The notes beneath the pieces were generated by a model. The model did no database searches, was not told where the DNA came from, and saw only the letters and a program-made list of their open reading frames with translations. A DNA stretch of 64,000 nt from a virus, in IMG/VR virus record IMGVR_UViG_3300042905_003268, positions 1-64,000 of that record; one strand, given 5' to 3'. Both the position numbers and the translations under genes were made by a program. Of the stretch, positions 1-23,214 are shown in pieces. The stretch's first letter is position 1. Each line of letters opens with the position of its first letter.

Positions 1-2
1 AC

Positions 3-131
3 TGGTTCCGCAAGGGCCGTGGTGAGCGGGGTGCTGAGAATGTTGCAGCAGCCGCTAGCGGTTTCGATCCTGTCACCAATGCGGAGAAGGGTCGCATCCT
101 GAAGGCGGTCAAGGAGATCGCTTTCGCGTAA
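3..131 (+). CDS. C-terminal end of an unknown gene (partial)
   Basis: An open frame enters from the left edge and ends at TAA 129-131, giving 42 residues that begin WFRKGRGERG and end KAVKEIAFA. The start lies outside the window. The stretch is basic and then Ala-rich; I do not recognise it. Its bases look more GC-rich than the rest of the window. The tRNA-like element and tRNA-Asp follow it on the same strand. Confidence 0.5.
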   Translation, partial: WFRKGRGERGAENVAAAASGFDPVTNAEKGRILKAVKEIAFA

Positions 132-167
132 TCAAGCATCCTGGGCATGATGTAAAACTGCCTGCAC

Positions 168-235
168 GCCACCCGCGCTGGGCGCAGACGAGATTCCAAC
201 CCTTGTCGTGCAGAGTTCGATTCTTTGGGGTGGTG
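168..235 (+). tRNA. tRNA-like element, possible tRNA-Trp(CCA) with a shortened D-arm
   Basis: A 7-bp acceptor stem (GCCACCC at 168-174 with GGGTGGT at 228-234), a 5-bp T-stem (211-215/223-227) around a TTCGATT loop, and an anticodon stem (187-192/202-207) are visible. The anticodon loop 194-200 would place CCA at 196-198. The D-arm is very short (GCG/CGC around a 5-nt loop) and the loop-closing pair A193/C201 is mismatched, so total length is only 68 nt. It lies 4 nt before tRNA-Asp, as in a tRNA pair. It may be a real but odd tRNA-Trp or a decayed tRNA. Confidence 0.45.
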
Positions 236-239
236 CTTG

Positions 240-312
240 GCACTTGTAGAGTAGCGGTTATCTCGCCACCCTGTCACGGTGGAGATCGTGGGTTCGAATC
301 CCATCAGGTGCG
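240..312 (+). tRNA. tRNA-Asp (anticodon GTC)
   Basis: A complete cloverleaf: acceptor GCACTTG (240-246) pairs with CAGGTGC (305-311), discriminator G312. The anticodon stem CCACC/GGTGG encloses CTGTCAC, giving anticodon GTC. The T-loop is TTCGAAT. No CCA is encoded. It is the only clearly canonical + strand tRNA in the window. Confidence 0.95.
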
Positions 313-328
313 CTTGACAAATTTTTTT

Positions 329-362
329 GCGCGGACAAGATCTTGGTCGCGGTATAAAAATA
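329..362 (+). repeat. Direct repeat, left copy (flanks the early gene cluster)
   Basis: Positions 329-344 (GCGCGGACAAGATCTT) match 3686-3701 at 15 of 16 bases, and the following A-rich segment ending in TAAAAATA is also alike. The copy contains the 10-bp palindrome CAAGATCTTG (336-345). This copy lies before the first small + strand gene and the second lies after the last one, so the pair brackets the early cluster. Function is not known. Confidence 0.5.
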
Positions 363-413
363 AGTCAATTACGACGGTTACGAAATTTCCCCAGAATTCC
401 TGGAATTTTCCGC

Positions 414-447
414 TTGACATATCCTCTCTCATACGCTTTACTAGATA
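414..447 (+). promoter_or_regulatory. Likely promoter of the early + strand operon
   Basis: A perfect TTGACA box at 414-419 is followed at 17 bp by TTTACT (437-442), with alternative -10 boxes TACTAG (439-444) and TAGATA (442-447). A strong ribosome binding site (AAGGAGAG, 457-463) and ATG 467 follow. The position, directly before a run of overlapping small genes, fits an early promoter. The exact -10 is uncertain. Confidence 0.55.
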
Positions 448-466
448 TACCTAGAAAGGAGAGAAT

Positions 467-637
467 ATGGACCCGAATGAAACCCTTGCATCCCTCCGCA
501 TCACCTTTGCGCGTTGGGAGGAGTGGGGGACTTTGGAAGTTGATGCAGAAGAGGCTATGGATTCCTTGACAGACCTGTTCTTTGCATTGGATAATTGGCT
601 TACATCAGGCGGTTTTCGCCCAGACGACTGGAGTTAG
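467..637 (+). CDS. Small acidic protein, first gene of the early operon
   Basis: ATG 467 is preceded by AAGGAGAG at a good distance; 56 codons end in TAG. The product begins MDPNETLASL and is acidic and Trp-containing (WEEWGTLEV, DDWS). No family is recognised. The next gene starts one base after its stop, so the two are probably co-translated. Small early phage proteins of this kind often act on host functions, but nothing here shows which. Confidence 0.75.
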   Translation: MDPNETLASLRITFARWEEWGTLEVDAEEAMDSLTDLFFALDNWLTSGGFRPDDWS

Positions 638-638
638 T

Positions 639-863
639 ATGGCAACCATCACATTCTCAGTAGAACTTATCTACGAGGGAACTGGTCACTTTATGGATTT
701 TGAGTATGAGTATGAGACTTGGGATGATATGACCCGCGAGGAGTTGGAGCAATTGGCTGACGATCTTTCTAGTGGTCGTGATCCTGAGTTGTATAACGAG
801 ATCATGGCTAACCTTTCTATCGTCCCCACCGTTGAGAATGTGAGTGCTGATGAACCTGAGTGA
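639..863 (+). CDS. Small acidic hypothetical protein
   Basis: The start at ATG 639, one base after the upstream stop, gives 74 residues beginning MATITFSVEL. It has a beta-rich start, then an acidic helix (EELEQLADDL) and an acidic tail. A longer in-frame reading to 582 would overlap the upstream gene and is less likely. The family is unknown. Its 3' end overlaps the next gene by 14 nt. Confidence 0.75.
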   Translation: MATITFSVELIYEGTGHFMDFEYEYETWDDMTREELEQLADDLSSGRDPELYNEIMANLSIVPTVENVSADEPE

Positions 864-1170
864 TGCTGAGACTGGTTGCTACATTGACGGCAGCCGTCGT
901 GATGTTGTTGAGTTCTCTCTATTAGTTATCGAACTGGCTCATGATTATGGCTTTGAGTTGGATTGGGATAGATTCGTCAAAGATGCCGCCAACTTGCGTG
1001 AGCCTGGGTATGTGATGGACGATGATGAGATACAAGAAATTTTTGATGCTATTGACTGGACCTATGAGGATGCGCTAGAATATCTCAATGACAATACCCG
1101 CGAGGGATTGTATTGGGAAGTAATAGATCAGAGTCTCTATCTAACGGAGGATGCAGATGCTAGCCAGTAA
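850..1170 (+). CDS. Acidic hypothetical protein
   Basis: 106 residues beginning MNLSDAETGC; a GTG at 844 is an alternative start. The product is mostly helical by appearance and very acidic (MDDDEIQEIFDAIDW), with several aromatic residues. It overlaps both neighbours, as is usual in this operon. Function not recognised. Confidence 0.75.
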   Translation: MNLSDAETGCYIDGSRRDVVEFSLLVIELAHDYGFELDWDRFVKDAANLREPGYVMDDDEIQEIFDAIDWTYEDALEYLNDNTREGLYWEVIDQSLYLTEDADASQ

Positions 1171-1363
1171 TATGCTTACCAAGGATCAGATGCTAGAGCA
1201 GTATGAGGTTCTAGGATTTGCTTATGGCATGTGTGTAGTCAAGCGTATGTCTGATGGTGTGAAGGGTACATTGGATTTTGGAGATCATCCTATCCTCCGT
1301 CCCGAGGATTCTTCCAACCCGCTTGGATATACTCGTTACTACTACAACTTTGTGGAGGCATGA
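1157..1363 (+). CDS. Small hypothetical protein
   Basis: ATG 1157 lies 6 nt after GGAGG (1146-1150), which favours it over the ATG at 1151 that abuts the ribosome binding site. The 68-residue product begins MLASNMLTKD and ends GYTRYYYNFVEA. It reads like a small beta/alpha domain with no recognised family. Its stop overlaps the next start region. Confidence 0.75.
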   Translation: MLASNMLTKDQMLEQYEVLGFAYGMCVVKRMSDGVKGTLDFGDHPILRPEDSSNPLGYTRYYYNFVEA

Positions 1364-1491
1364 TGGATATTTCAGTAGAGGTTCAGAATGTTAGTTTCAT
1401 CATTGACGCAGAGGATGAGAGCGAGGCTATCGCTAAGGTAGAGGACTTTCTGCAAGAGTATGCTTGGGACTGGACCCAACCCTATGCCTGA
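1363..1491 (+). CDS. Very small hypothetical protein (42 aa)
   Basis: ATG 1363 follows GGAGG (1353-1357) at about 5 nt and touches the upstream stop. The product begins MDISVEVQNV and has one beta hairpin-like segment and one helix (EAIAKVEDFLQEY). Short spacing, the ribosome binding site and the next gene starting inside its end all support expression. Confidence 0.65.
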   Translation: MDISVEVQNVSFIIDAEDESEAIAKVEDFLQEYAWDWTQPYA

Positions 1492-1675
1492 GTATATCAA
1501 CGCTATCAAGACTGTTACTTATGATGTTCCCGCCATTGTTGAGAGCCTAGAGCAGATGGGCATGGAGGATATTGACTTAGACGTTGTGATGGAGTATATT
1601 CAGGAGTGGGTCTTTGAGGACTTTGGCGATTCCTATGGTATTGTCTATCAGGATGAGAATGGGGATGAACTGTGA
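1484..1675 (+). CDS. Small acidic hypothetical protein
   Basis: ATG 1484 overlaps the upstream stop (ATGCCTGA); an upstream ATG at 1460 is possible but overlaps more. The 63-residue product begins MPEYINAIKT and is rich in Asp/Glu (EQMGMEDIDLDVVMEYI). No family is recognised. It is coupled to the following GTG start. Confidence 0.7.
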   Translation: MPEYINAIKTVTYDVPAIVESLEQMGMEDIDLDVVMEYIQEWVFEDFGDSYGIVYQDENGDEL

Positions 1676-1845
1676 AACAATATCGCATTGTCCTGCCCCT
1701 GGAAGTGTGGGGAGAGTTTGAAGATGACGAGGATCATGAGTTTATCAAGGAAGTCCTAGGAGATAAGTTGGACGGACTCTTGATTTCTACCGACTACCTG
1801 TGGGATTATTGGAAAGACGCCAAAGTCGAACCTATGGAGGGATAA
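1672..1845 (+). CDS. Small hypothetical protein (57 aa)
   Basis: GTG 1672 overlaps the upstream TGA in the sequence GTGA, the usual coupling seen in this phage. The product begins MKQYRIVLPL and ends DAKVEPMEG. It is acidic with aromatic clusters (DYLWDYWKD). Its last base is the first base of the next gene's ATG. Confidence 0.65.
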   Translation: MKQYRIVLPLEVWGEFEDDEDHEFIKEVLGDKLDGLLISTDYLWDYWKDAKVEPMEG

Positions 1846-2210
1846 TGCCTAATATCACCATGCACCTTACTGCTAACTTTTACCCGCCCATTCCTGCTGA
1901 CATTCAGTTGCGCGTGCAGGAGATTTTTGATGAGTTGCAGGCTGACTCATATCCATTTATCTCAGGTTGGGCAGATATTCCCGAGGACTGGTGCTATGAG
2001 TATGAGGACTGGTCTGTATTCGACCGCGAGTATAAGTTGCCTAATGGTGCGGTGGTGACAGGTCGCTCTCTGTGTGATGATCTGCGTCTTTGGGATGCGC
2101 TCTTCTGGGATTGCGATGAACCTATGGATACATGGGAAGATCATGAGCGTGAGGCAATAGAGTTGGCTAATCAGGTCCCTGGCCAACTATCATTTTGGAC
2201 GGTGGAGTAA
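1845..2210 (+). CDS. Hypothetical protein (121 aa)
   Basis: ATG 1845 lies directly behind GGAGGG (1837-1842) and overlaps the upstream TAA. The product begins MPNITMHLTA and carries a Trp/Tyr/Asp-rich middle (DWCYEYEDW). It looks like a folded alpha/beta protein without a recognised family. It overlaps the next start by one base. Confidence 0.75.
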   Translation: MPNITMHLTANFYPPIPADIQLRVQEIFDELQADSYPFISGWADIPEDWCYEYEDWSVFDREYKLPNGAVVTGRSLCDDLRLWDALFWDCDEPMDTWEDHEREAIELANQVPGQLSFWTVE

Positions 2211-2434
2211 TGCTAAAGTTTATAGAGATTGACTGTGGCCCAGGCGGGTATGTGTGGGAACTACACTCACAACATCATGACCATCTTAGGACATATGAGA
2301 GCGAGGCGGCTATGCTGAATGATGCTGCCCTACTGAAGATGGTAGATGTATCTTATAGATTCTACACTCAGGCTGAATACAACCTAGAGATGCAAGTAGA
2401 GATCATGACAGAGAATGGGGCATGGAATGGATAA
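2210..2434 (+). CDS. Small hypothetical protein (74 aa)
   Basis: ATG 2210 follows GGTGGAG at a good spacing and overlaps the upstream stop (TAATG). The product begins MLKFIEIDCG. No family is recognised. The next gene starts inside its end. Confidence 0.7.
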   Translation: MLKFIEIDCGPGGYVWELHSQHHDHLRTYESEAAMLNDAALLKMVDVSYRFYTQAEYNLEMQVEIMTENGAWNG

Positions 2435-2789
2435 GCGTGAGTATCTGCGTAGTCTGGGATTCACAGTAGGAGAGCGTGGTCGCTTTACTGCTGAGATGAT
2501 GACTGCTCTGAAGGACTATCAAGAAGAAGGCGGGAAACTAGAAGGTCGTACAGGTAAGAGAGATGATGGTCTACCTGAATCTGAGCCTGTAGTTATTCGT
2601 CCCCACGTTCCTCCTATGACCCAGGTTCGTCAGCCTAAGAAACTCAGGGGGCGTAGTAAAGAGGGATACATTGTAGAGTTTGTTACTTGTTTTGACTGTC
2701 ATTATCACATGATGTATTGCTCATGCGAGGGGGGAGTAAAGGCTCCATCTTCCATATCCACTAGCAAAGACCCGCTCGTTCGTGTATAA
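2427..2789 (+). CDS. Lsr2-like DNA-binding domain protein with Cys/His-rich tail
   Basis: 120 residues. Residues 4-31 (REYLRSLGFTVGERGRF, then an AEMM...ALKDY helix) match the layout of the Lsr2 C-terminal DNA-binding domain, in which an RGR motif inserts into the AT-rich minor groove. Here RGRF is at 17-20. The tail carries a Cys/His cluster (CFDCHYHMMYCSC) that could bind zinc. The Lsr2 dimerisation domain is absent. Actinophages carry such proteins as possible silencing or anti-silencing factors; that role is inference. ATG 2427 was preferred over ATG 2415. Confidence 0.65.
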   Translation: MDKREYLRSLGFTVGERGRFTAEMMTALKDYQEEGGKLEGRTGKRDDGLPESEPVVIRPHVPPMTQVRQPKKLRGRSKEGYIVEFVTCFDCHYHMMYCSCEGGVKAPSSISTSKDPLVRV

Positions 2790-2790
2790 T
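2785..2790 (+). promoter_or_regulatory. Promoter -10 box (TATAAT)
   Basis: A consensus TATAAT in the context GTGTATAAT lies 20 nt after the start of the last codons of the upstream gene and 25 nt before ATG 2816. There is no convincing -35 box. The same GTGTATAAT string precedes the gene at 5878. Confidence 0.5.
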
Positions 2791-2815
2791 GTAGGTTCCC
2801 CATCGAAAGGATATC

Positions 2816-3175
2816 ATGACACAGGACAAGGCTGAAAAGGCGTTCATCGACGCCTCGCATAATGTATTGTTCAGCGCTTATGGATTTGCTGATGCCGTCA
2901 GGCTTGCGGGTGCTATCCCTGCCTCTGCTCTGAATAAAGTGGCTATCGGATGGTTTAGGCTAATGGAGGTCGAACATCGCTATGGCATTGGTGATCCCGT
3001 AATTGGCGAACTTGGTTCGCGTATCGTAAACGAGGTGCTGAGTGACTATGAAGAACTACCCGACTACAACCCTGGTCGTGGATTTGAGGGTGGAGGTGGA
3101 GATAATAGAGGAACTTGGGAAGACTATGAGAGCCGATATTCTCCGTCGTTCATTCGAAGAGGCTTTGACTCTTAG
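2816..3175 (+). CDS. Hypothetical protein (119 aa), C-terminus overlapped by another gene
   Basis: ATG 2816 follows AAAGGATATC. The first 80 residues (MTQDKAEKAF onwards) read as an ordinary helical protein. From about residue 85 the product becomes Gly-rich and irregular (RGFEGGGGDN), exactly where a second frame starting at 3048 reads as a well-formed protein. This may be a long natural overlap or a frameshift. No family recognised. Confidence 0.6.
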   Translation: MTQDKAEKAFIDASHNVLFSAYGFADAVRLAGAIPASALNKVAIGWFRLMEVEHRYGIGDPVIGELGSRIVNEVLSDYEELPDYNPGRGFEGGGGDNRGTWEDYESRYSPSFIRRGFDS

Positions 3176-3236
3176 GAACATCAAGCCTGGGCTTGACGTA
3201 CAAAAAGTCGAAGTGATACAATATTCAAATATGTAG
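3048..3236 (+). CDS. Small hypothetical protein (62 aa)
   Basis: ATG 3048 (GTG 3042 also possible). The product begins MKNYPTTTLV, with a clear beta strand (LVVDLRVEVEII), a helix and a final strand (VQKVEVIQYSNM), a typical small phage protein layout. It overlaps the 3' end of the 2816 gene by 128 nt in another frame. Its last codons contain the promoter of the small RNA at 3238. Confidence 0.6.
   Translation: MKNYPTTTLVVDLRVEVEIIEELGKTMRADILRRSFEEALTLRNIKPGLDVQKVEVIQYSNM
3193..3222 (+). promoter_or_regulatory. Promoter of the 3238 small RNA
   Basis: TTGACG (3193-3198) and TACAAT (3217-3222) are each one mismatch from consensus, 18 bp apart, inside the end of the upstream coding region. 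The expected start of transcription is near 3229, nine bases before a large base-paired structure. Confidence 0.65.
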
Positions 3237-3237
3237 T

Positions 3238-3324
3238 ATGGTGGTGCGGCTATCAGGGGACGCCCTAGTCGTTAACTAAAGCAGGAGCCTCGAAAACTCC
3301 TAGCAGCCACCATCTTTTTCTTTA
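3238..3324 (+). ncRNA. Structured small RNA with terminator-like 3' end
   Basis: The outer stem ATGGTGG (3238-3244) pairs with CCACCAT (3307-3313) and is followed by CTTTTTCTTT. Inside are three short hairpins: AGGG/CCCT, TAGT/ACTA and AGGAG/CTCCT, the last with a TCGAAA-containing loop like a T-arm. The layout is a multi-branched, roughly cloverleaf RNA of about 76 nt ended by a T-run. It has its own promoter (3193-3222). It is not a normal tRNA: the arms have wrong sizes and no clear anticodon. It could also be only an elaborate terminator. Confidence 0.55.
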
Positions 3325-3349
3325 CAATGTCAGAGGGCGGGTGTATAGT
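3321..3349 (+). promoter_or_regulatory. Promoter producing a leaderless mRNA
   Basis: TTTACA (3321-3326) and TATAGT (3344-3349) are 17 bp apart. The -10 box ends six bases before ATG 3356, so transcription should begin at or next to the start codon. The -35 box overlaps the T-run that ends the small RNA. Confidence 0.65.
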
Positions 3350-3355
3350 AGAGAT

Positions 3356-3673
3356 ATGACATGGACACAGATTGACCCAGATAACTTCTCTCAGTATGAG
3401 GGTATGACTCCTGCTGAGATTGGCAGAAGCATTCTCAAGTCCCGCCCACATGATCTGCATTTGCTGCGTGAGCAGCAGAAGGTTCTAGTATACACAGAAT
3501 CATATTCTGGCAGGCCGTGGGAGTATAAGGTGGATAACCCAGAGTGGGCAAACTTCTGGAAGCCAGTCTATGATCTTAAGGATAAGCCAGAGTCAGAATG
3601 GGTAGAGGATGATTATTTCTCATATCGCGCAATGAAGGCACTTCTTCCCGCATCTGCCGTCAGGGTGGCTTGA
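3356..3673 (+). CDS. Hypothetical protein (105 aa), last early gene
   Basis: The product begins MTWTQIDPDN and is rich in Trp, Asp and Pro (NPEWANFWKPVYDLKDKPE). No family is recognised. ATG 3356 was chosen over GTG 3341 because the -10 box occupies the space between them. A GC-rich hairpin pair follows the stop. Confidence 0.75.
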   Translation: MTWTQIDPDNFSQYEGMTPAEIGRSILKSRPHDLHLLREQQKVLVYTESYSGRPWEYKVDNPEWANFWKPVYDLKDKPESEWVEDDYFSYRAMKALLPASAVRVA

Positions 3674-3675
3674 CA

Positions 3676-3696
3676 GCCGCGCTTGGCGCGGCCAAG
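3676..3696 (+). terminator. GC-rich alternative hairpins after the early gene cluster
   Basis: GCCGCGC (3676-3682) pairs with GCGCGGC (3686-3692) around TTG, and the overlapping CTTGGC (3682-3687) pairs with GCCAAG (3691-3696) around GCG. The two hairpins exclude each other. There is no long T-run, so a terminator role is only likely by position. The right half belongs to the direct repeat also found at 329. Confidence 0.4.
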
Positions 3697-3720
3697 ATCT
3701 TACCCGCGTAGTAAAAAATA
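3686..3720 (+). repeat. Direct repeat, right copy
   Basis: GCGCGGCCAAGATCTT (3686-3701) repeats 329-344 with one mismatch, followed by a similar CGCG...TAAAAAATA segment. It marks the end of the early gene cluster and the start of the origin-like region. Confidence 0.5.
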
Positions 3721-3838
3721 CCCCTTTACGAAGAACTTAAAAATTTCGCAGAATTTTTGACAGTTATCCACAATTTTATCCACAGCGGGTATGGGCGCTT
3801 ATATTTTACAAATTAGACATTACGACGGACATGAAAAA

Positions 3839-3864
3839 ATCGCAGAATTTTACGATTCTGCGAT
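3839..3864 (+). repeat. 10-bp perfect inverted repeat in the origin region
   Basis: ATCGCAGAAT (3839-3848) and ATTCTGCGAT (3855-3864) enclose a 6-base loop, followed by ATATATTTTTATA. It could act as a terminator on the + strand or as a structural element next to the DnaA boxes at 3871 and 3882. A related TCGCAGAAT string occurs at about 3745. Confidence 0.6.
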
Positions 3865-4098
3865 ATATTTTTATACACATGTTATCCACAGGTGGGGTAT
3901 ATGATGTATCCCCCTATACTATACATACTATACTAGGATACATATACACATCCCGCCCACATATTATCCACAGGTTGTGGATAACTTTGGGCATATTACG
4001 AAGGACCCCAAAATTTGCTGGAATTTTTTAGAATTAAACAGAATTAAATAATATGTGGTCATATTTGGTAAATATATTATAAAAATGCCCCATTTTTC

Positions 4099-16145: not shown

Positions 16146-16451
16146 CTATTCCCAATCTTCTGGGATAGGAATGCCATTATCTATCAAGTATTGTTTGCCA
16201 TCTTGAGTAATCTTAAATCCTGGGTTTAGATTTTCATCATACTCTACTTCTACAAATCCCAACTTATATAAAACTACCAACTCTTCGTTTAATTCTTGCA
16301 TCATTGCATCGTACAACTCTGGAAAGGACTCTGCTAATTTGTCTATATTAAATACAAACGTTCTTTCTCCTGAGCCGTCCATTCCGACCCATTCGATAAT
16401 ACCGTCCTCTTCCATGAATTTAATAAATTCATCAATTTCATTATCTTCCAT
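16146..16451 (-). CDS. Small acidic winged-helix-like protein
   Basis: 101 residues. Helix-rich start (NEIDEFIKFM), LVVLYKLGFVEVEYDE and GKQYLIDNGI resemble the end of a winged-helix domain; not secure. ATG 16451 lies one base after the 3' end of tRNA-Thr, so cutting the tRNA free would leave an almost leaderless mRNA. Confidence 0.6.
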   Translation of the reverse strand: MEDNEIDEFIKFMEEDGIIEWVGMDGSGERTFVFNIDKLAESFPELYDAMMQELNEELVVLYKLGFVEVEYDENLNPGFKITQDGKQYLIDNGIPIPEDWE

Positions 16452-16452
16452 G

Positions 16453-16526
16453 AGCCTCAGATCGGATTCGAACCGATGACTTTCCGCTTACAAGGCGGAT
16501 ACTCTGGCCAACTGAGTTACTGAGGC
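16453..16526 (-). tRNA. tRNA-Thr (anticodon TGT)
   Basis: Acceptor GCCTCAG/CTGAGGC, discriminator at 16453, anticodon stem TCCGC/GCGGA around CTTGTAA, T-loop TTCGAAT. No CCA is encoded. The ATG of the next gene is one base past the 3' end. Confidence 0.95.
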
Positions 16527-16530
16527 TATC

Positions 16531-16576
16531 CTAGGCTGTTGCCGCAATTTTATTTGCGCCTAGAATATCATTCTAG
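16531..16576 (-). terminator. Hairpins after the secreted lysozyme-like gene
   Basis: CTAGAAT/ATTCTAG (16560-16566/16570-16576) lies four bases after the stop at 16580. It competes with a larger pairing, CTAGGC (16531-16536) with GCCTAG (16558-16563), that encloses GCAA/TTGC. There is no strong T-run. It could end transcription or shape the tRNA-Thr 5' leader. Confidence 0.35.
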
Positions 16577-16579
16577 CAT

Positions 16580-17194
16580 TTAAATCTTTTCTGGGGTACA
16601 TTTTTTGGGGAATAAAGACCACCCAGTATTGAATGGTGCAATCACCCAGGAATATGTTAGTCCAGATCCCCAGAGTGAATAATACATTCCTGCATCCTCG
16701 TACCATGAATCATTCTTAAATGAATATCCATAGCCCCAATTATGCATTCCATCATTAAGGAAGTGCTTCCTTACAATTTCTGATTGCTTTTCCTTATCTA
16801 ACATGTTATCTCTGGACCACCAGGGTTTTCCTGACCAAGCACTTGTTTGAATTTGCCAAGTACCCAGAGCACCTGTGAACCATCTGCTAGATTCATCTAA
16901 TGATTCATGCTTAGATTCGCGCCAGGTAATTGCCCAGGCTCCTCTTAACATTCCAGGTCTATTAAAACCTGACTTAAACAGCATCTTTGCTTGCTTATCA
17001 TTACAATTAGATGGCAATGTCCAATTTCTATCTGTTATTGCCCTTCTTTCTAATGTATCAGCGGTGGCAAAGTTACCTGTACCTTCCGCCAAAGGCGTAG
17101 ACTTAGCATACGCCAGGTTTGGAGAGATTAGTACCATTGATAATACTACTGTCGTTGATACTAATGCAGCACCAAATCGGTTTATTGTCGTCAT
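16580..17194 (-). CDS. Secreted lysozyme/transglycosylase-like protein
   Basis: 204 residues. A Sec-type signal peptide (MTTINRFG, hydrophobic core to about residue 28, cut near AYA|KS) precedes a lysozyme-like domain. GMLRGAWAITWRESKHES places a candidate catalytic Glu, and GALGTWQIQTSAW is the family's glycine/Gln motif, as in resuscitation-promoting-factor and goose-lysozyme folds. It acts outside the membrane, probably on host peptidoglycan at lysis or on the wall. AAGGAGG precedes ATG 17194 and a strong promoter lies upstream. Confidence 0.7.
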   Translation of the reverse strand: MTTINRFGAALVSTTVVLSMVLISPNLAYAKSTPLAEGTGNFATADTLERRAITDRNWTLPSNCNDKQAKMLFKSGFNRPGMLRGAWAITWRESKHESLDESSRWFTGALGTWQIQTSAWSGKPWWSRDNMLDKEKQSEIVRKHFLNDGMHNWGYGYSFKNDSWYEDAGMYYSLWGSGLTYSWVIAPFNTGWSLFPKKCTPEKI

Positions 17195-17226
17195 ATTGAC
17201 CTCCTTGTGGCGGCAACATGAATTCT

Positions 17227-17255
17227 ATTATACGGGAATATTACGATATGGTCAA
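17227..17255 (-). promoter_or_regulatory. Strong promoter of the lysozyme-like gene
   Basis: On the - strand TTGACC (17255 to 17250) and TATAAT (17232 to 17227) are exactly 17 bp apart. ATG 17194 follows 32 bases later with an AAGGAGG site. This is the best-matched promoter in the accessory region. The spacer contains an ATTACG string like that repeated in the origin. Confidence 0.75.
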
Positions 17256-17359
17256 CGATTTTGGATAATTTACTATTTCAATCATATTATTATACAAAGT
17301 AACGTAAGGTCTGAGGTAGTAGTTACCATTGTGCTTAACGAGACAATAAAATGTAAACA

Positions 17360-17485
17360 TTACTTCTTGCCACGACGGACTTTAAGTGGAGACTTACCAA
17401 TATTTATTTTGCCATCTTTATGTTCTGGATTAGTAATTCCTCCGCCACCTTGTTTAATAGTTTCGGTAGTTATTACATTATTCAT
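17360..17485 (-). CDS. Small basic Gly-rich protein (41 aa)
   Basis: The frame begins MNNVITTETI, contains GGGGITNPEHKDGK and ends VRRGKK. It overlaps the upstream Cys-rich gene by 4 nt (ATGA). No family recognised. Confidence 0.55.
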   Translation of the reverse strand: MNNVITTETIKQGGGGITNPEHKDGKINIGKSPLKVRRGKK

Positions 17486-17829
17486 TTAAGAAATGATCCT
17501 CCCCAGAACTTACCCATCATATCATCATCTTCATCATACATAGATGCGTTTACATAACCGTCTGGGATGGCTGCAAGTCGGCACTTTCCTTCTGGATGAA
17601 CTAGATAAGAAAGAATAGCACAACCTAATTGCCCATCTTCTCTCTCAATGTGTAGAGAACAATTAGAGCATTTAACTCCAATTTGTGCATCTTCGTTTTC
17701 TCCTGGGCCTTCGTATCCTACCCAGATACTTGATGTTCCTTGATCAAATGGGCCAAATCTCTCAGCAATTGAAACCATTGCATCGTGATAGGCTTTTTCT
17801 TCTTCTGTTAATTCATCGTATAGTTCCAT
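17482..17829 (-). CDS. Cys-containing hypothetical protein (115 aa)
   Basis: CSNC (about 54-57), GCAIL and KCRL give four Cys spaced as in a small metal site, within an acidic protein ending GKFWGGSFLK. A similar CxxC...C...C arrangement occurs in phage-associated proteins of unknown role. ATG 17829 follows a TATAAT box by 6 bases. Confidence 0.6.
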   Translation of the reverse strand: MELYDELTEEEKAYHDAMVSIAERFGPFDQGTSSIWVGYEGPGENEDAQIGVKCSNCSLHIEREDGQLGCAILSYLVHPEGKCRLAAIPDGYVNASMYDEDDDMMGKFWGGSFLK

Positions 17830-17835
17830 ATTATT

Positions 17836-17841
17836 ATTATA
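17836..17841 (-). promoter_or_regulatory. Promoter -10 box (TATAAT) for a leaderless gene
   Basis: TATAAT on the - strand ends 6 bases before ATG 17829, so the transcript should start at the ATG. No -35 box is evident. Confidence 0.55.
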
Positions 17842-17857
17842 TCACCGTGCGGTTGTG

Positions 17858-18481
17858 TTACCTGGAATATCCTGGGTGAAAAGATCCTATAGAATATAGA
17901 CACCAGTAATTTTCCTGAGGGACGTTTCTTTTATCCACCCAAAAATCTTCTGAGTCTCCATTTATTACTAGTTCGTAATCTAAAGAACTTAGTATAAATC
18001 TCTGAACATCTCTCATTTTTTCTAATGTATAATCTCTAACAAAGTCATGCTCAATAGTTATTACACTAAACCTATAATCCTGCAATGGTAATTGTATTAG
18101 TGCAAGTAGGTTGGCGTTTCTTGGAGTATCATCAACATCTATTTGTAGATAATCAATCTGCTTAGGGAAATCATTATTAACAAAATAGTCTGTGTAATTA
18201 AAATTTAATGCGTTCTGTTTTAAACAGGTTGACTTCCTTTTTTGGTTATATAAATTTACTAAATTCTCATCAGTATCTAGCGCTAGTCCCCGCCAATTAA
18301 ATTTATTTTCTAAAAGATTAGTATTGTTAGATATTTCTGGGTGACCAGATCCTATTTCTAAAAAGAATCCATTAGTTTTTTCTTTCAATACATTTAAAAC
18401 AAAACTCTCCTGATTGCATGAAGAACTTGAATCGGGATAATTCTTAATATTTAAATCTGGATATGAAATATGCATATTCAT
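17858..18481 (-). CDS. FkbM-type methyltransferase-like protein
   Basis: 207 residues. FLEIGSGHPEISNN is the SAM-binding glycine motif of FkbM-like enzymes, followed by NWRGLALDTDE (acidic ligand after strand 2) and DYLQIDVDDTP. FkbM enzymes methylate hydroxyl groups of sugars and natural products. It is related to the gene at 24519 (FVEFGAMDGIELSN) and may act on a phage or cell-surface glycan. Confidence 0.7.
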   Translation of the reverse strand: MNMHISYPDLNIKNYPDSSSSCNQESFVLNVLKEKTNGFFLEIGSGHPEISNNTNLLENKFNWRGLALDTDENLVNLYNQKRKSTCLKQNALNFNYTDYFVNNDFPKQIDYLQIDVDDTPRNANLLALIQLPLQDYRFSVITIEHDFVRDYTLEKMRDVQRFILSSLDYELVINGDSEDFWVDKRNVPQENYWCLYSIGSFHPGYSR

Positions 18482-18510
18482 TTATACTGACTCCTAATGT
18501 ATTATTTTGG

Positions 18511-18582
18511 CTGGCGTGGAAGGATTCGAACCTTCAACCGATCGGTTAACAGCCGATTGCGCTGCCATTGCGCCACACGCCA
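18511..18582 (-). tRNA. tRNA-Asn (anticodon GTT)
   Basis: Acceptor TGGCGTG/CACGCCA, discriminator G (complement of c18511), anticodon stem ATCGG/CCGAT with CTGTTAA, T-loop TTCGAAT. No CCA encoded. It lies 4 nt after tRNA-Tyr. Confidence 0.95.
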
Positions 18583-18586
18583 TAAG

Positions 18587-18666
18587 TGCCAGATGTTGGA
18601 ATCGAACCAACCATGCCTGAGGCGACGGTTTTACAGACCGCTTCCCCACCTTGGGGACTATCTGGC
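18587..18666 (-). tRNA. tRNA-Tyr (anticodon GTA)
   Basis: Acceptor GCCAGAT/ATCTGGC, anticodon stem GCGGT/ACCGT with CTGTAAA, a long variable arm typical of tRNA-Tyr, T-loop TTCGATT. Its 5' end overlaps the last codons of the small zinc protein at 18658. Confidence 0.95.
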
Positions 18667-18774
18667 TCTAAGGCAATCAGAGCATACTCCTCTAGTCCCC
18701 ACCCTTTGACCAGGAACTAGTAAAAACTGCTCTAAATCTTTTTCAGTTTTACAATTGTGACATATCTTTTTCAT
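18658..18774 (-). CDS. Tiny zinc-finger protein (38 aa) between two tRNAs
   Basis: The frame begins MKKICHNCKTEK and ends VCSDCLRAR: two CxxC pairs in the layout of the small zinc fingers often next to HNH proteins. Its ATG follows the tRNA-Arg 3' end by two bases, and its stop lies inside the 5' acceptor of tRNA-Tyr, so tRNA maturation and this mRNA compete. Confidence 0.6.
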   Translation of the reverse strand: MKKICHNCKTEKDLEQFLLVPGQRVGTRGVCSDCLRAR

Positions 18775-18776
18775 TG

Positions 18777-18849
18777 TGTGCCTGGAGGGATTCGAACCCC
18801 CAACCTAATGGGTAGAAACCATTTGCGCTGTCCGTTGCGCCACAGGCAC
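18777..18849 (-). tRNA. tRNA-Arg (anticodon TCT)
   Basis: Acceptor GTGCCTG/CAGGCAC, discriminator at 18777, anticodon stem AATGG/CCATT with TTTCTAC, T-loop TTCGAAT. Reads AGA, a codon used heavily in this AT-rich phage. No CCA encoded. Confidence 0.95.
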
Positions 18850-18856
18850 CTGTCAT

Positions 18857-19585
18857 TTAAAACAATGATAATTGATTATTACATATAATATCTAATAGGT
18901 CAAGTGGTCTTCTATCTGACTGACGCCACCATCTAGGAGATTCTAAATCTACTGAATCTTTATTCAGCCTAGAAATTTCATACTTAACACCATTATGACC
19001 AAAGTGTAGGAAATTATCTGGTATCTGTACAGCAATTTTTGGATCTACTTTAACTAAATATTTACTATAATCAAATTCTTTATCTCTGGTGTTTTGTTTT
19101 ATTCTTTCTGGCGCGGGACCTAGACCAGTTTTATGAAATCTATTTATAAGTGGCATTACTGCACTAGATAAAGACGAGTCTACAACAGTTTTAGAACCAA
19201 ATCTATATATCATGTCTAGGTATGTAATTCCAATCATACACGCTACATACCTTCGATAATCATTTTGTGTATGTACATTTCTCCATACAGAATAATTCTG
19301 GAATAGATTAAATAATATTAATTGATTGTTTTCTACCCCAACACCATTGCACTTGCCGTATCCATTATTAAATTGTGCGGAATTAAATAATTTATCCCAC
19401 CCATAATCCCCGACTTTATAATCATTTGCATAAATATATGATGAAGTTGGGTGATTTATTGTTACTTCTATTCCTGGGCCATATAAAAAATCTTCGTCAT
19501 TATTTTCTGGCTTAAATATTACATACTGTGTATAAGTCTCATATATAGATTTATATGCCACTTCTCCATCAAATAAAAATTTCAT
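18857..19585 (-). CDS. Unknown protein (242 aa)
   Basis: The product begins MKFLFDGEVA and contains aromatic-rich blocks (YGPGIEVTINHPTSSYIYAND, FQNYSVWRN) and a SPRWWRQSDRRP segment near the end. It looks like a folded enzyme-sized protein, but I recognise no motif or family. ATG 19585 lies three bases after the tRNA-Gly 3' end. It ends just before tRNA-Arg. Confidence 0.65.
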   Translation of the reverse strand: MKFLFDGEVAYKSIYETYTQYVIFKPENNDEDFLYGPGIEVTINHPTSSYIYANDYKVGDYGWDKLFNSAQFNNGYGKCNGVGVENNQLILFNLFQNYSVWRNVHTQNDYRRYVACMIGITYLDMIYRFGSKTVVDSSLSSAVMPLINRFHKTGLGPAPERIKQNTRDKEFDYSKYLVKVDPKIAVQIPDNFLHFGHNGVKYEISRLNKDSVDLESPRWWRQSDRRPLDLLDIICNNQLSLF

Positions 19586-19588
19586 AGG

Positions 19589-19659
19589 AGCGAGTGACCA
19601 GAATCGAACTGGCGATAACTGCTTGGAAGGCAGATGTGTTACCTCTACACCACACTCGC
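19589..19659 (-). tRNA. tRNA-Gly (anticodon TCC)
   Basis: Acceptor GCGAGTG/CACTCGC, anticodon stem TCTGC/GCAGT with CTTCCAA, T-loop TTCGATT. No CCA encoded. Start codon of the next gene is three bases past the 3' end. Confidence 0.95.
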
Positions 19660-19665
19660 GGGAGA

Positions 19666-19803
19666 TTAATCTTTTTCTAAAAGATCAATCGCCTCTTTAA
19701 TTGCCTGATTCCATCCTGCAATAAAAGAACTAATCTCAGTAGAAGATGCTGAGTTTTTCATCTTCTTTGCCTTAAGTTTTTCAATTACCTTATCGCGTGT
19801 CAA
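19666..19803 (-). CDS. Small hypothetical protein (45 aa), TTG start
   Basis: TTG 19803 overlaps the upstream TGA as TTGA, like the ATGA overlaps elsewhere. The product begins MTRDKVIEKL and ends KEAIDLLEKD, two helices joined by a Ser/Thr-rich loop. No family recognised. Confidence 0.55.
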   Translation of the reverse strand: MTRDKVIEKLKAKKMKNSASSTEISSFIAGWNQAIKEAIDLLEKD

Positions 19804-20009
19804 TTGTATCCCTTTTCAATAAATGTCCCGTCCCAAATTGAAGCGGGATTCTCTGATACATTTTTCTTAGATTCAGATGCATATAGCGCACGTTGCTGTG
19901 CTACTGCTTCTGCGCGAGTTGCATGGCAACCCTCAATTTCATTTGTTCCTTCTTTGACTACTGCATATCCATTGCAATCGCCAAAGTTTCTTTGTACTTT
20001 CCAAGGCAT
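19800..20009 (-). CDS. Small phage domain protein (PWKV...GCHATRAEA type, 69 aa)
   Basis: MPWKVQRNFG, then YAVVKEGT and GCHATRAEAVAQQRALYAS match a short domain common in phage genomes, often fused to portal or protease proteins, where it is about 50 residues. Its function is not established. GGGAGG precedes ATG 20009, 12 bases after tRNA-Gln. Confidence 0.65.
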   Translation of the reverse strand: MPWKVQRNFGDCNGYAVVKEGTNEIEGCHATRAEAVAQQRALYASESKKNVSENPASIWDGTFIEKGYN

Positions 20010-20021
20010 TTTAACCTCCCG

Positions 20022-20092
20022 CTCCCCGATCTAGATTCGAACTAAAACTAAATGATCCAAAGTCATTTGTGCTACCATTACACCATCAGGGA
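20022..20092 (-). tRNA. tRNA-Gln (anticodon TTG)
   Basis: Acceptor TCCCTGA/TCGGGGA with one T-G pair, anticodon stem AATGA/TCATT with CTTTGGA, T-loop TTCGAAT. No CCA encoded. It sits 4 nt after the HNH gene stop. Confidence 0.9.
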
Positions 20093-20096
20093 ATAT

Positions 20097-20609
20097 CTAC
20101 TTACCTTCTAATAGTACCAGAAATACTGGTTTTCGGTCAACTATTCCTATAGAACACGCCCAACACCATTCTGGCGGGGTATGATCACACTTATTTGCTG
20201 GCTTCTTTGCCCAATGGGGCCAATCTTCTGGACCCGCTAAAGATCCACAGTACGGACATGTTTCTTCCTGTAATAAAAGTCTACCGTCATAGCAATCCGT
20301 ACAAAAACTTTCTAATATCTCCTGCTTTCTCCGCCTTCGATCTTGATAATTAGCCCTTGGAGGGCGCGGAGGAATCGATCCATCTTCATTAGGTATCCTA
20401 TCACTTTTCCATGCGTTACATTTTTTATGAGCAAGTCTTAAATTAGATACATCTTCTGATCCTCCCGCTGAACGGGGAATCCAATGATCTAATGTTACGT
20501 CAGAATTTGCCTTAAAATCTTTTAGGCAGATGGCGCATGTAAATCCATCACGCTCTCTAACAAGTTTTATTTTATCCCTTTTACTAAGCAGAAGATTCTG
20601 ATTTAGCAT
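20097..20609 (-). CDS. HNH endonuclease
   Basis: 170 residues from ATG 20609 (20627 also possible). CAIC (about 29-32), LDHWIPRSAGG, SNLRLAHKKCN and CNAWKS are the HNH core with its zinc pair. A Cys-rich C-terminus (CTDC, CPYCG, CWAC) could hold two more metals. HNH proteins near tRNAs and terminase are often homing or packaging nucleases. Confidence 0.85.
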   Translation of the reverse strand: MLNQNLLLSKRDKIKLVRERDGFTCAICLKDFKANSDVTLDHWIPRSAGGSEDVSNLRLAHKKCNAWKSDRIPNEDGSIPPRPPRANYQDRRRRKQEILESFCTDCYDGRLLLQEETCPYCGSLAGPEDWPHWAKKPANKCDHTPPEWCWACSIGIVDRKPVFLVLLEGK

Positions 20610-20820
20610 TGATAAATTCTCTTTCATCTACAATATCGTATGCATCACGAATGATGCTAACCTCGTACTTGTCAAAGTGGTGGCCACAGAAATACAACTC
20701 GCCAGTTACAAACTTAGCGATAACCCACGCCTGCGCGGGACATTTAGGTGCATCACACCTATCGCTTCTGGTAAGAACTCTTACTTCTTCCTGAACTTCA
20801 GTTTCCATGGAGTCCTCCAT
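20584..20820 (-). CDS. DUF7455-like actinobacterial small zinc protein
   Basis: 78 residues. LTRSDRCDAPKCPAQAWV and LYFCGHHFDKYE follow the DUF7455 pattern (Cys pair, then CGHH), found in actinobacteria and their phages. ATG 20820 lies 6 bases after a TATAAT box. A second ATG (20808) follows GGAGG, so two starts are possible. It overlaps the HNH gene. Confidence 0.65.
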   Translation of the reverse strand: MEDSMETEVQEEVRVLTRSDRCDAPKCPAQAWVIAKFVTGELYFCGHHFDKYEVSIIRDAYDIVDEREFINAKSESSA

Positions 20821-20826
20821 ATATTA

Positions 20827-20832
20827 ATTATA
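20827..20832 (-). promoter_or_regulatory. Promoter -10 box (TATAAT)
   Basis: TATAAT on the - strand ends 6 bases before ATG 20820, giving a leaderless transcript. No clear -35 box. Confidence 0.5.
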
Positions 20833-21120
20833 TCAGTTTGGTTTAAAATGATCGCTAATTTGTTTCATTTGTTTATTTATTTTACTTATCTTTTCCTGAA
20901 GTAGTTTATTCTCTAACTCTAATTTTTTATTTATATCTTCTAATTCAATTACTTTTTCTTGGTAAATAGTTATTCTATCTTCTACTTCAGATTGCTTTAT
21001 ATTAGAATCATTATGTTCCGAAAGAACTGTTGTTATTCTTTTTACATAAAGCATTAAAATAACGAACATGACTACTTCTATCGCTAGAAGTATTGATCCT
21101 ACTACAATTAATGTTTCCAT
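20833..21120 (-). CDS. Membrane-anchored coiled-coil protein (95 aa)
   Basis: The product begins METLIVVGSI, has one membrane segment (ILLAIEVVMFVILMLYV), then a long coiled coil (VEDRITIYQEKVIELEDI). ATG 21120 lies one base past the tRNA-Pro 3' end; the reading upstream of it is only translated tRNA sequence. The layout resembles spanin or membrane-adaptor proteins, without proof. Confidence 0.65.
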   Translation of the reverse strand: METLIVVGSILLAIEVVMFVILMLYVKRITTVLSEHNDSNIKQSEVEDRITIYQEKVIELEDINKKLELENKLLQEKISKINKQMKQISDHFKPN

Positions 21121-21121
21121 G

Positions 21122-21195
21122 TCGGGATGAAAGGATTTGAACCTTCGGCCCCCTGTTCCCAAAACAGGTGCGCTACCAAACTGCGCCACATCCCG
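21122..21195 (-). tRNA. tRNA-Pro (anticodon TGG)
   Basis: Acceptor CGGGATG/CATCCCG, anticodon stem CCTGT/ACAGG with TTTGGGA, T-loop TTCAAAT. No CCA encoded. ATG 21120 follows the discriminator by one base. Confidence 0.95.
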
Positions 21196-21198
21196 CAA

Positions 21199-21332
21199 GT
21201 TGCAGACGGCTAGGAACCCTCTTACGCACGAAAGACGCTAGAAACGAATTCAACGCTTTCAACTCGCACAGACTCGCTATAACGGGATATTTGTATGTAA
21301 CTACACCATCCTAAGATATTGCCATCTGCAAC
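21199..21332 (-). ncRNA. Structured RNA closed by a 12-bp stem, inside the tRNA array
   Basis: GTTGCAGACGGC (21199-21210) and GCCATCTGCAAC (21321-21332) form a 12-bp stem with one mismatch or wobble, joining both ends of a 134-nt stretch. It lies 2 nt after tRNA-Ile and 3 nt before tRNA-Pro, so tRNA end-processing enzymes would cut it out precisely. Internal repeats (GCTAG, ACTCGC) suggest more pairing. There is no convincing open frame and no fit to a tRNA, tmRNA or other known class that I can name. The strand is inferred from the flanking tRNAs. Confidence 0.6.
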
Positions 21333-21334
21333 CG

Positions 21335-21408
21335 TAGGGCGGGTGAGACTTGAACTCACGATCTTCACCTTATAAGAGTGACGCCTTCACCAACTTGGCC
21401 ACCGCCCC
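21335..21408 (-). tRNA. tRNA-Ile (anticodon TAT)
   Basis: Acceptor GGGGCGG/CCGCCCT with one G-T pair, D-arm GCC/GGC, anticodon stem TCACT/GGTGA with loop CTTATAA (anticodon TAT), T-loop TTCAAGT. It reads AUA directly, instead of the usual CAT anticodon that needs lysidine. No CCA encoded. The 134-nt structured RNA starts 2 nt after it. Confidence 0.85.
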
Positions 21409-21423
21409 GTAACAACTACTATA

Positions 21424-23214
21424 TTAAATTATTTCCATGCTGTCAATAGCATTTTGTAGAGCGGGTGGGATGATAAGTTCGCTATTTTGTTTCCTACCCA
21501 TCCTTAATTTTAACTCTTCTTCGCTATCTTGTTCAAGCATATCGTACGAATAGATTTCGATTTCTTGTAGCGAATCTCTTCTAGAGCGAGCAATCGCATT
21601 ATAAACCGCGCCACATACGGCATCAGCCAAGTCCTTGCTTCCCTTTCTAGGGTGGTCAACTTTATCACCGCGTATCCTTAATTGCAATAATTCATCTATC
21701 AATAATTTAAGTTCTGGCCCATAAACTCTTTCTTCTGTAATAAGTAGGGCCATATCTTCATAATGCTTCTTTGCGACAGATAATAATTCAGTATTAATAC
21801 CATAATGTTTTAACTGCTGCATCATGTCATGAGAATTCCATCTGTCGAACGTGACTACTCCTAGACTAAATCCGCGCTCGCGCAATTCAATAATGTAATC
21901 TTTTACTTCAGATAAATCTACGCTATTGGTAGATGTTGGTTGCCAATATCTTACGGCGTCTACGATTACCCTGGGGGCCGCTTCTGTCATTGTGCCAGCA
22001 ATCTTCATCTGCACCCAGCCTTCAATATGAGCCATAGCCACAGCACAATTATCATGCTTTTGGGCTAAGTCAACATGAACAAAATACTGGCGTCCTTCCT
22101 CTGGTTTAAACCATTCTGAGAATCTTCCACCATTATCTACTGCAAACTTAGGATTACTAAAAGCCCTTTCGATCTTCTCGCGTGACTTAAAGAATGCATC
22201 TGTTGCTTCTGGTGGCATACATGCAAAACGCATAAGAGAATCTAATGGGTCATCATAGAAAGCAATGGTAAAGTCTTGAATCTTTCTAGTTGGATTAAAT
22301 TCCCAGGTGGGTCTTTTCAAGGCAAATATGTGTGGAAGGGAATAGGAAATAATATGATCCTCTTCCCACTCAATAGTAAATTCATTACCGTCGTGTCCAT
22401 CTGGTAGATCTGGATCAATTTTAAAACTATGAGACTTAACTATAGTTTCTTTCTCTGCTACTGCGTCATTGTATTTTTGTTGAATAAAGTCATTCTTAAA
22501 TCTTGGGAAGGAAAGCATGATAACTTTCCCAAAGTCTGGAAAGCGAGAGTTGACAGATGCTCTATACATCTTATAGATAGCCGCAGAGGTTTTTGGGCTC
22601 TGCCTTCCTGTGGTATTCTCTAGTTCAAAGCCTGATATTTCGTCAAGGATGGCAAGCAGGACATTGTAGCCCTCCCACGACTCTGCTTCTGAATGTCCTG
22701 AGTGAACAGTTATTTCTTTGTCAAATTCAATACTGTTAGCCTTGGGTATATATCTTCCCTGGAACCAGGCTGACTTTTCAATAATGCGCTTGAATCCTTT
22801 AAAGAACACTCTGTTTGCCTGGACAGCATTGATAGCAATGTTAATAATGTCAATTGAATCTCCTGGCGGTTTGCCATAATACTTTGCTGGATCATTAAGG
22901 CACAATAAGAGGTGGACAACATAGGCACACCCGATAGTAGAGATAAAGTCCTTCCCCCCGCCCTTCCCTATCTGAAGAATCACTTCCTTACATGTCTGGT
23001 TCCATCTTTTTATTCCTTCTTCTTCTCCAAGCCATTTATTTAGGGTGTCTTTATCATAAATTTGCGTCATAGACTTAATGGCTTTGTATTGATATTCTGA
23101 AAGAGGAGGTAAGTCTAGGTACTTCTTGTCAGTAACAAACTCCTCTATCGTGGCTGGAGTTTCCTCAAACTTGTCATCGTCAAGTGCTTCTATAAAGTCA
23201 CTAAAATCAATCAA
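21424..23214 (-). CDS. terL: Terminase large subunit
   Basis: 596 residues. Walker A-like GKGGGKD (about 83-89) with Walker B LLAILDEISG (near 190) form the packaging ATPase, and HVDLAQKHD, VTFDRWNSHD and DLADAVCGAV mark the RNase-H-like nuclease. It threads DNA into the procapsid. It overlaps the small-subunit candidate by 8 nt. The head genes that usually follow are not in the window; the tail genes are 20 kb to the right. Confidence 0.92.
   Translation of the reverse strand: MIDFSDFIEALDDDKFEETPATIEEFVTDKKYLDLPPLSEYQYKAIKSMTQIYDKDTLNKWLGEEEGIKRWNQTCKEVILQIGKGGGKDFISTIGCAYVVHLLLCLNDPAKYYGKPPGDSIDIINIAINAVQANRVFFKGFKRIIEKSAWFQGRYIPKANSIEFDKEITVHSGHSEAESWEGYNVLLAILDEISGFELENTTGRQSPKTSAAIYKMYRASVNSRFPDFGKVIMLSFPRFKNDFIQQKYNDAVAEKETIVKSHSFKIDPDLPDGHDGNEFTIEWEEDHIISYSLPHIFALKRPTWEFNPTRKIQDFTIAFYDDPLDSLMRFACMPPEATDAFFKSREKIERAFSNPKFAVDNGGRFSEWFKPEEGRQYFVHVDLAQKHDNCAVAMAHIEGWVQMKIAGTMTEAAPRVIVDAVRYWQPTSTNSVDLSEVKDYIIELRERGFSLGVVTFDRWNSHDMMQQLKHYGINTELLSVAKKHYEDMALLITEERVYGPELKLLIDELLQLRIRGDKVDHPRKGSKDLADAVCGAVYNAIARSRRDSLQEIEIYSYDMLEQDSEEELKLRMGRKQNSELIIPPALQNAIDSMEII

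Follow-up and report, generated by a model that had tools for sequence, protein, structure and literature searches.

The stretch of DNA analysed here (the window), which belongs to a freshwater phage, comprises bases 1–64000 of the 103,779-base IMG/VR virus record IMGVR_UViG_3300042905_003268, the rest of which was read as two stretches. It contains a cluster of eight transfer RNA (tRNA) genes on the minus strand, found by ARAGORN at 16452–21408. Four protein-coding genes of the cluster begin one to three nucleotides (nt) after the 3′ end of a tRNA (Table 1), and these junctions, which may mark the 5′ ends of messenger RNAs (mRNAs), are the subject of this work. The nearest terminases of cultured phages (TerL) are those of Streptomyces phages of the Stanwilliamsviridae, at 57–62% identity, and the phage also carries a WhiB gene, an actinobacterial marker; an actinobacterial host is therefore very probable.

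Table 1. Positions of the tRNA genes and coding sequences discussed, with the nucleotides at each junction (k, nt between tRNA discriminator and start codon; aa, amino acids)
Feature	Position	Strand	Remarks
101-aa gene, function unassigned	16146..16451	minus	ATG 16451, k=1 after tRNA-Thr, T/C/ATG
tRNA-Thr(TGT)	16452..16526	minus	no encoded CCA; ARAGORN end takes in base +1 (C)
207-aa gene (contrast)	17858..18481	minus	own Shine-Dalgarno AGGAG in 29-nt gap after tRNA-Asn
tRNA-Asn(GTT) (contrast)	18508..18582	minus	CCA encoded
tRNA-Tyr(GTA)	18586..18666	minus	first 9 nt are the end of the 38-aa gene
38-aa gene, Cys-pair (zinc-ribbon-like)	18658..18774	minus	ATG 18774, k=2 after tRNA-Arg, A/CA/ATG
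tRNA-Arg(TCT)	18776..18849	minus	no encoded CCA
242-aa gene, function unassigned	18857..19585	minus	ATG 19585, k=3 after tRNA-Gly, T/CCT/ATG
tRNA-Gly(TCC)	19587..19659	minus	no encoded CCA
69-aa gene (contrast)	19800..20009	minus	Shine-Dalgarno GGGAGG in 12-nt gap after tRNA-Gln
tRNA-Gln(TTG) (contrast)	20021..20092	minus	found by ARAGORN
95-aa gene	20833..21120	minus	ATG 21120, k=1 after tRNA-Pro, A/C/ATG; hydrophobic N-terminus, then charged region
tRNA-Pro(TGG)	21121..21195	minus	no encoded CCA
Terminase	21424-23214	minus	PHROG terminase match

A preliminary description of this DNA had placed the four start codons 1, 2, 3 and 1 nt behind the Thr, Arg, Gly and Pro tRNAs, respectively, and ARAGORN together with direct reading gave exactly the same codons and gaps. 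It had also observed that none of these tRNAs encodes CCA, as expected of substrates of RNase Z, which holds for all four; tRNA-Asn of the same cluster does encode it. By contrast with the four junctions, the genes behind tRNA-Gln and tRNA-Asn are preceded by Shine-Dalgarno (SD) sequences. The close spacing is retained in related phages. Orthologues of the 101-aa gene keep k=1 behind tRNA-Thr although their N-termini diverge, with 13 members of the family at this position and the remainder behind tRNA-Met, mostly at k=12. The 95-aa family starts at k=1 in all 18 members found, and the gene behind tRNA-Gly starts at k=3, 1, 4 or 2, depending on the relative. The window and its close relatives have the 38-aa Cys-pair protein in the slot behind tRNA-Arg(TCT), which is filled by a GTG-started protein of 243–254 aa in two others (L016 and L022) and by one of 151–173 aa in three more (L066, L069 and L072), in every case at k=1 or 2.

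The four junctions of the window are a local example of a wider arrangement. Terminase relatives of the window phage were taken from IMG/VR (179 non-redundant tRNAs) and pooled with seven Stanwilliamsviridae genomes (377 non-redundant tRNAs together), ATG/GTG open reading frames (ORFs) of at least 50 aa being counted in the pooled set. Among the 377 tRNAs, no start lies at k=0, 34 lie at k=1, one at k=2, two at k=3, three at k=4 and only three at k=5–9, and many follow from k=10 onwards, where SD sites and −10 boxes turn up. In the terminase-related family, C followed by ATG or GTG and an ORF of at least 50 aa was found 14 times at k=1 against 0.87 expected from random C positions, by a naive test on partly homologous and hence non-independent cases. 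The tRNAs of this family are followed by 31 protein families, of which 11 have a member at k≤4, and the range k=5–9 holds just two singletons, of 42 and 48 aa.

The codons found at k=1 are not equivalent. An ORF of at least 50 aa is opened by 25 of the 27 ATG and 9 of the 10 GTG codons of the pooled set, but by only 3 of the 18 TTG codons (92% for ATG/GTG versus 17% for TTG; Fisher p=4e-8). SD cores are almost absent, being found before none of 19 such starts in the terminase-related set and before one of the 40 starts at k≤4 in the pooled set. These features bear on the view that the layout reflects compact packing only, in which genes abut tRNAs for space and ribosomes start on the uncut polycistronic RNA without an SD sequence, by internal initiation or by re-initiation. 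Packing is in keeping with the other side of the tRNAs, where upstream genes also stop a few nt short of the 5′ end (mostly 3–11 nt, with a peak at 8 and a few overlaps), and with the existence in these phages of some leadered genes that lack a strict SD core. However, it predicts starts spread over k=0–9 instead of a spike at k=1 with few at 5–9. Re-initiation across a folded tRNA directly upstream would be unlikely, and the restriction to ATG and GTG fits leaderless initiation, whereas leadered initiation also uses TTG (PMC4633059). Packing alone is thus an unlikely explanation of the junctions.

Leaderless mRNAs could also arise as primary transcripts, from promoters inside the tRNA genes that start the RNA at the ATG with no tRNA processing. 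Leaderless genes with a −10 box just before the ATG indeed look common in this phage family, since a TANNNT box at the right distance, about 7–12 nt before the start, accompanies 30 of 73 non-SD starts at k≥14. The same box accompanies only 1 of the 40 starts at k≤4, where the upstream bases belong to the acceptor and T-arm and are constrained by tRNA function, and promoters inside tRNAs were rejected for nearly all of these starts; as a general explanation they are very improbable. The tRNA-adjacent genes of these phages are accordingly of three kinds: those with ATG or GTG directly at the tRNA, those with an SD sequence from about k=12, and those whose ATG lies just past a −10 box and which would be leaderless from a promoter. 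As many of them possess their own SD sequence or −10 box, tRNAs would not make the 5′ ends of nearly all mRNAs. A conserved small gene behind tRNA-Asn (in L036, L037, L038, L049, L064, L069, L072 and others) has a TATAAT whose end lies roughly one base ahead of the first ATG; RNA made from this promoter would start inside the ORF, so that a codon further in may be the true start.

The arrangement is found in cultured phages as well. In the Streptomyces phage Paradiddles (L783), three coding sequences (gp132, gp098 and gp070) begin, in the depositors' own annotation, at the base after an annotated tRNA end. At k=1, the seven Streptomyces phages have 23 genes of 50 aa or more: six each in Paradiddles and EGole, four each in LukeCage and IchabodCrane, two in Gilson, one in Wakanda and none in Faust. 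Behind tRNA-Leu(GAG), Paradiddles and EGole carry genes of one protein family, whose start codon, in an identical k=1 position, is GTG in the former and ATG in the latter. Paradiddles also has probable missed or misplaced genes at the tRNA ends 22776, 25796 and 36485: k=1 ATGs after tRNA-Lys (50 aa) and tRNA-Leu(CAA) (74 aa) are unannotated, and for the coding sequence that follows tRNA-Phe the annotation uses an internal ATG lying 9 nt downstream.

The tRNA itself might act, still attached, as a structured leader, a tRNA-like element aiding or regulating initiation on uncut RNA; the stop codon of the 38-aa gene, which lies within tRNA-Tyr, argues that some RNAs are used uncut. Against such a role, the junctions involve many different isoacceptors (Thr, Arg, Gly, Pro, Gln, Leu and others), and members of a given gene family can follow different tRNAs or have a leader of their own. 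One family lies at k=1, with a GTG start, behind tRNA-Arg in two phages but lies at k=27–28 behind tRNA-Tyr in three others; a 245-aa gene of L006, at k=28 behind tRNA-Tyr with a −10 box, probably belongs to it. The tRNA-Gln slot of L006 holds a 2OG-Fe(II) oxygenase-like gene at k=1. A structured leader is the least probable of the alternatives considered.

Beyond these phages, an IMG/VR-wide search for a T-arm followed by C and ATG at k=1 gave, among the matches listed, an ORF of at least 50 aa in 36 of 73 distinct cases, against 10 of 73 for a control shifted to k=7. When the upstream frame was required to be closed, the counts among the matches listed were 32/62 for ATG, 24/58 for GTG, 14/69 for TTG and 10/59 for the control, and the 56 ATG and GTG ORFs fall into 49 protein families. 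Chance placement was ruled out by the distribution of k, the k=7 control and the contrast between ATG/GTG and TTG.

Bacterial genomes contain the same junction. A GTDB scan, with records grouped by title, yielded 22 actinobacterial loci, 10 of which combine a called tRNA with an ORF of 50 aa or more, versus 8 of 58 other loci (p=0.005). The freshwater bacterium Planktophila belongs to the Nanopelagicales (an order assigned here from the name Candidatus Planktophila versatilis). By pattern, 29 of 61 genomes of this order have tRNA-Leu(CAA), C and ATG at the head of a gene for a response regulator that carries an ANTAR domain. Another 28 genomes of the order have tRNA-Leu(CAA), with the start at k=1 in 21 (18 ATG, 3 GTG) and at k≥10 in seven, so that about 50 of the 61 genomes have the k=1 layout (L446, for example). 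The start of these regulators remains at k=1, and their N-terminal sequences vary widely. In the Microbacteriaceae, GlmU begins at k=1 after tRNA-Gln in two of the loci examined; elsewhere a leader is present or the tRNA is missing. The layout is not general in Actinomycetota, a phylum-wide pattern search having found it in 13 of 199 genomes; the informative search was the one within the Nanopelagicales.

These comparisons also bear on the accuracy of the start codons. If the true starts lay further inside the ORFs, the tRNA-adjacent ATG would be a chance in-frame codon, and annotators have sometimes picked internal starts, as for the Paradiddles gene after tRNA-Phe. A chance codon would not explain why ATG and GTG at k=1 open long ORFs so much more often than TTG, nor why the position stays constant while N-termini diverge and ATG and GTG interchange. 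Moreover, protein homology is consistent with the starts called for GlmU and the ANTAR regulator. Wrong start calls are therefore a highly improbable source of the pattern.

The base after the discriminator (+1) is C in 177 of the 179 tRNAs of the phage family. It is near-universal even where no CCA is encoded, as though C74 had been retained in the gene. This is not a bias of ARAGORN, since mutated windows still yielded all nine tRNAs, mostly with the mutated base at +1. Nor is it a special mark of these phages, a C being also usual in tRNA genes without CCA from other phyla (54/60). In differential RNA sequencing of Streptomyces coelicolor, most tRNAs that encode CCA are cut between its two Cs, and several of those without CCA are cut a few nt downstream (PMC4681348). 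By analogy, processing may take place behind the encoded C74, and not directly behind the discriminator as the preliminary description had supposed. With a cut after C74, the mRNA of a k=1 gene would begin with the AUG itself; with a cut after the discriminator, the leader would be a single C. On a simple reading, the spike at k=1 and the lack of starts at k=0 arise because base +1 (C74) is encoded.

Taken together, these observations suggest the following mechanism. The genes and tRNAs of the cluster are probably co-transcribed. An endonuclease of the RNase Z type would cut at the 3′ end of the tRNA, directly behind either the discriminator or the encoded C74, and the tRNA would later be completed to CCA. 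Removal of the tRNA would then set the 5′ end of the next mRNA, with AUG or GUG first or preceded by 1–3 nt, and this leaderless mRNA would be translated without an SD sequence, at which actinobacterial ribosomes are good. Mycobacterial leaderless translation requires ATG or GTG at +1, and +1 is preferred over +2 to +5 (PMC4633059). Leaderless initiation at these codons, which the preliminary description had proposed, is well supported by the sequence comparisons because of the spike at k=1, the few starts at k=5–9, the restriction to ATG and GTG, the lack of SD sequences and −10 boxes, and the recurrence in unrelated genes, in cultured phages and in actinobacterial genomes. Its further proposal, that tRNA 3′-end processing makes the 5′ ends of these mRNAs, is the best inference from sequence, and we give it a probability of about 0.74; it would represent a bacterial form of the tRNA punctuation of mitochondria. 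The short gaps between upstream stop codons and tRNA 5′ ends also speak for it, as does the probable actinobacterial host.

Several observations weigh against this interpretation. Three of the seven Streptomyces phages (Gilson, Wakanda and Faust) have two k=1 genes or fewer. Mycobacteriophage Myrna has no starts at k≤4; neither have KVP40 and XacN1, as expected, nearly all of their tRNAs encoding CCA, which by definition excludes C followed by ATG or GTG, so that Myrna is the sole fair control of the three. The difference between GTG and TTG among the IMG/VR matches listed (p=0.012 at 50 aa or more) is not significant at 80 aa or more. Homologous cases are non-independent, and naive probabilities overstate the significance.

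The remaining objection comes from the window itself, in one of the four genes on which the preliminary description had relied. The last sense codons and the stop codon TAG of the 38-aa gene (ATG 18774) lie within tRNA-Tyr, in a 9-nt overlap (18658–18666, minus strand), so that an RNase P cut at this tRNA would give a 38-aa mRNA without a stop codon. Therefore, a single RNA molecule could not give both tRNA-Tyr and the complete mRNA, unless translation is finished by the time of the cut. Selection appears to constrain the 38-aa gene at the protein level, as judged from substitutions between relatives, because the changes are mostly synonymous (for example, nine synonymous to one non-synonymous, and 13 to two); it gives weak PHROG matches to endonuclease VII and Lar-like families.

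A broader proposal, put forward tentatively and with less than even odds, is that tRNA punctuation may be a standing mode of gene expression in some actinobacteria and their phages. Maturation of a tRNA would license translation of the next gene and tie its output to the cutting, and where genes overlap, as for the 38-aa gene and tRNA-Tyr, an RNA would give either the tRNA or a complete mRNA. In the literature searched, outside which most subscription papers lie, no description was found, for bacteria or for phages, of tRNA 3′ processing as a source of mRNA starts. The leaderless mRNAs already known arise at primary transcription starts, and tRNA punctuation is familiar from mitochondria; the junctions, if confirmed, would extend this mitochondrial processing logic to bacteria and phages, with conserved bacterial cases in the ANTAR regulator and GlmU. 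The cultured phages make the proposal directly testable. Gene finders that seek SD sequences or disfavour a start next to a tRNA will overlook these genes or put them in the wrong place, as perhaps in Paradiddles.

Away from the cluster, positions 1–4000 of the window have a G+C content of 0.47, versus about 0.38 elsewhere in the window, and an opposite GC skew; they hold several small plus-strand ORFs and a tRNA-Asp at 240–313.

The tRNA punctuation model of animal mitochondria reportedly goes back to Ojala, Montoya and Attardi in 1981. As in these mitochondria, tRNAs lie here between genes, starts and stops are a few nt from the tRNA ends, and leaderless mRNAs would be expected from tRNA excision. 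Unlike mitochondria, the double-stranded DNA phages and bacteria considered here have promoters of their own, SD genes and leaderless promoters, and only some of the tRNA–gene junctions are of this type, with a cut that is so far predicted. Mitochondrial leaderless mRNAs are cited in PMC4633059. The Stanwilliamsviridae (cluster BE; PMC5764925) share the junctions of tRNA, C and ATG or GTG, which occur in six of the seven genomes examined, and have much larger tRNA sets than the window phage (43 to 48 in BE1; PMC5764925); the genome papers checked for this family do not comment on the junctions. Known actinobacterial leaderless mRNAs (PMC4633059, PMC4681348, PMC3890552) resemble those proposed here: their ATG or GTG lies at the 5′ end or beside it, TTG is excluded and an SD sequence is lacking. 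They are defined from primary starts with a −10 box, whereas the present junctions lack the box and would give processed ends with a 5′ monophosphate. The passages on S. coelicolor tRNA 3′ processing covered here draw no link to mRNA starts (PMC4681348). Closest in the proposed cut are the dicistronic tRNA-snoRNA (small nucleolar RNA) transcripts of plants and the tRNA-C/D small RNA transcripts of Nanoarchaeum equitans, for which cutting by RNase Z has been proposed to form the 5′ end of the downstream RNA (PMC3491384); there the downstream RNA is small and non-coding, whereas here it would be a leaderless mRNA.

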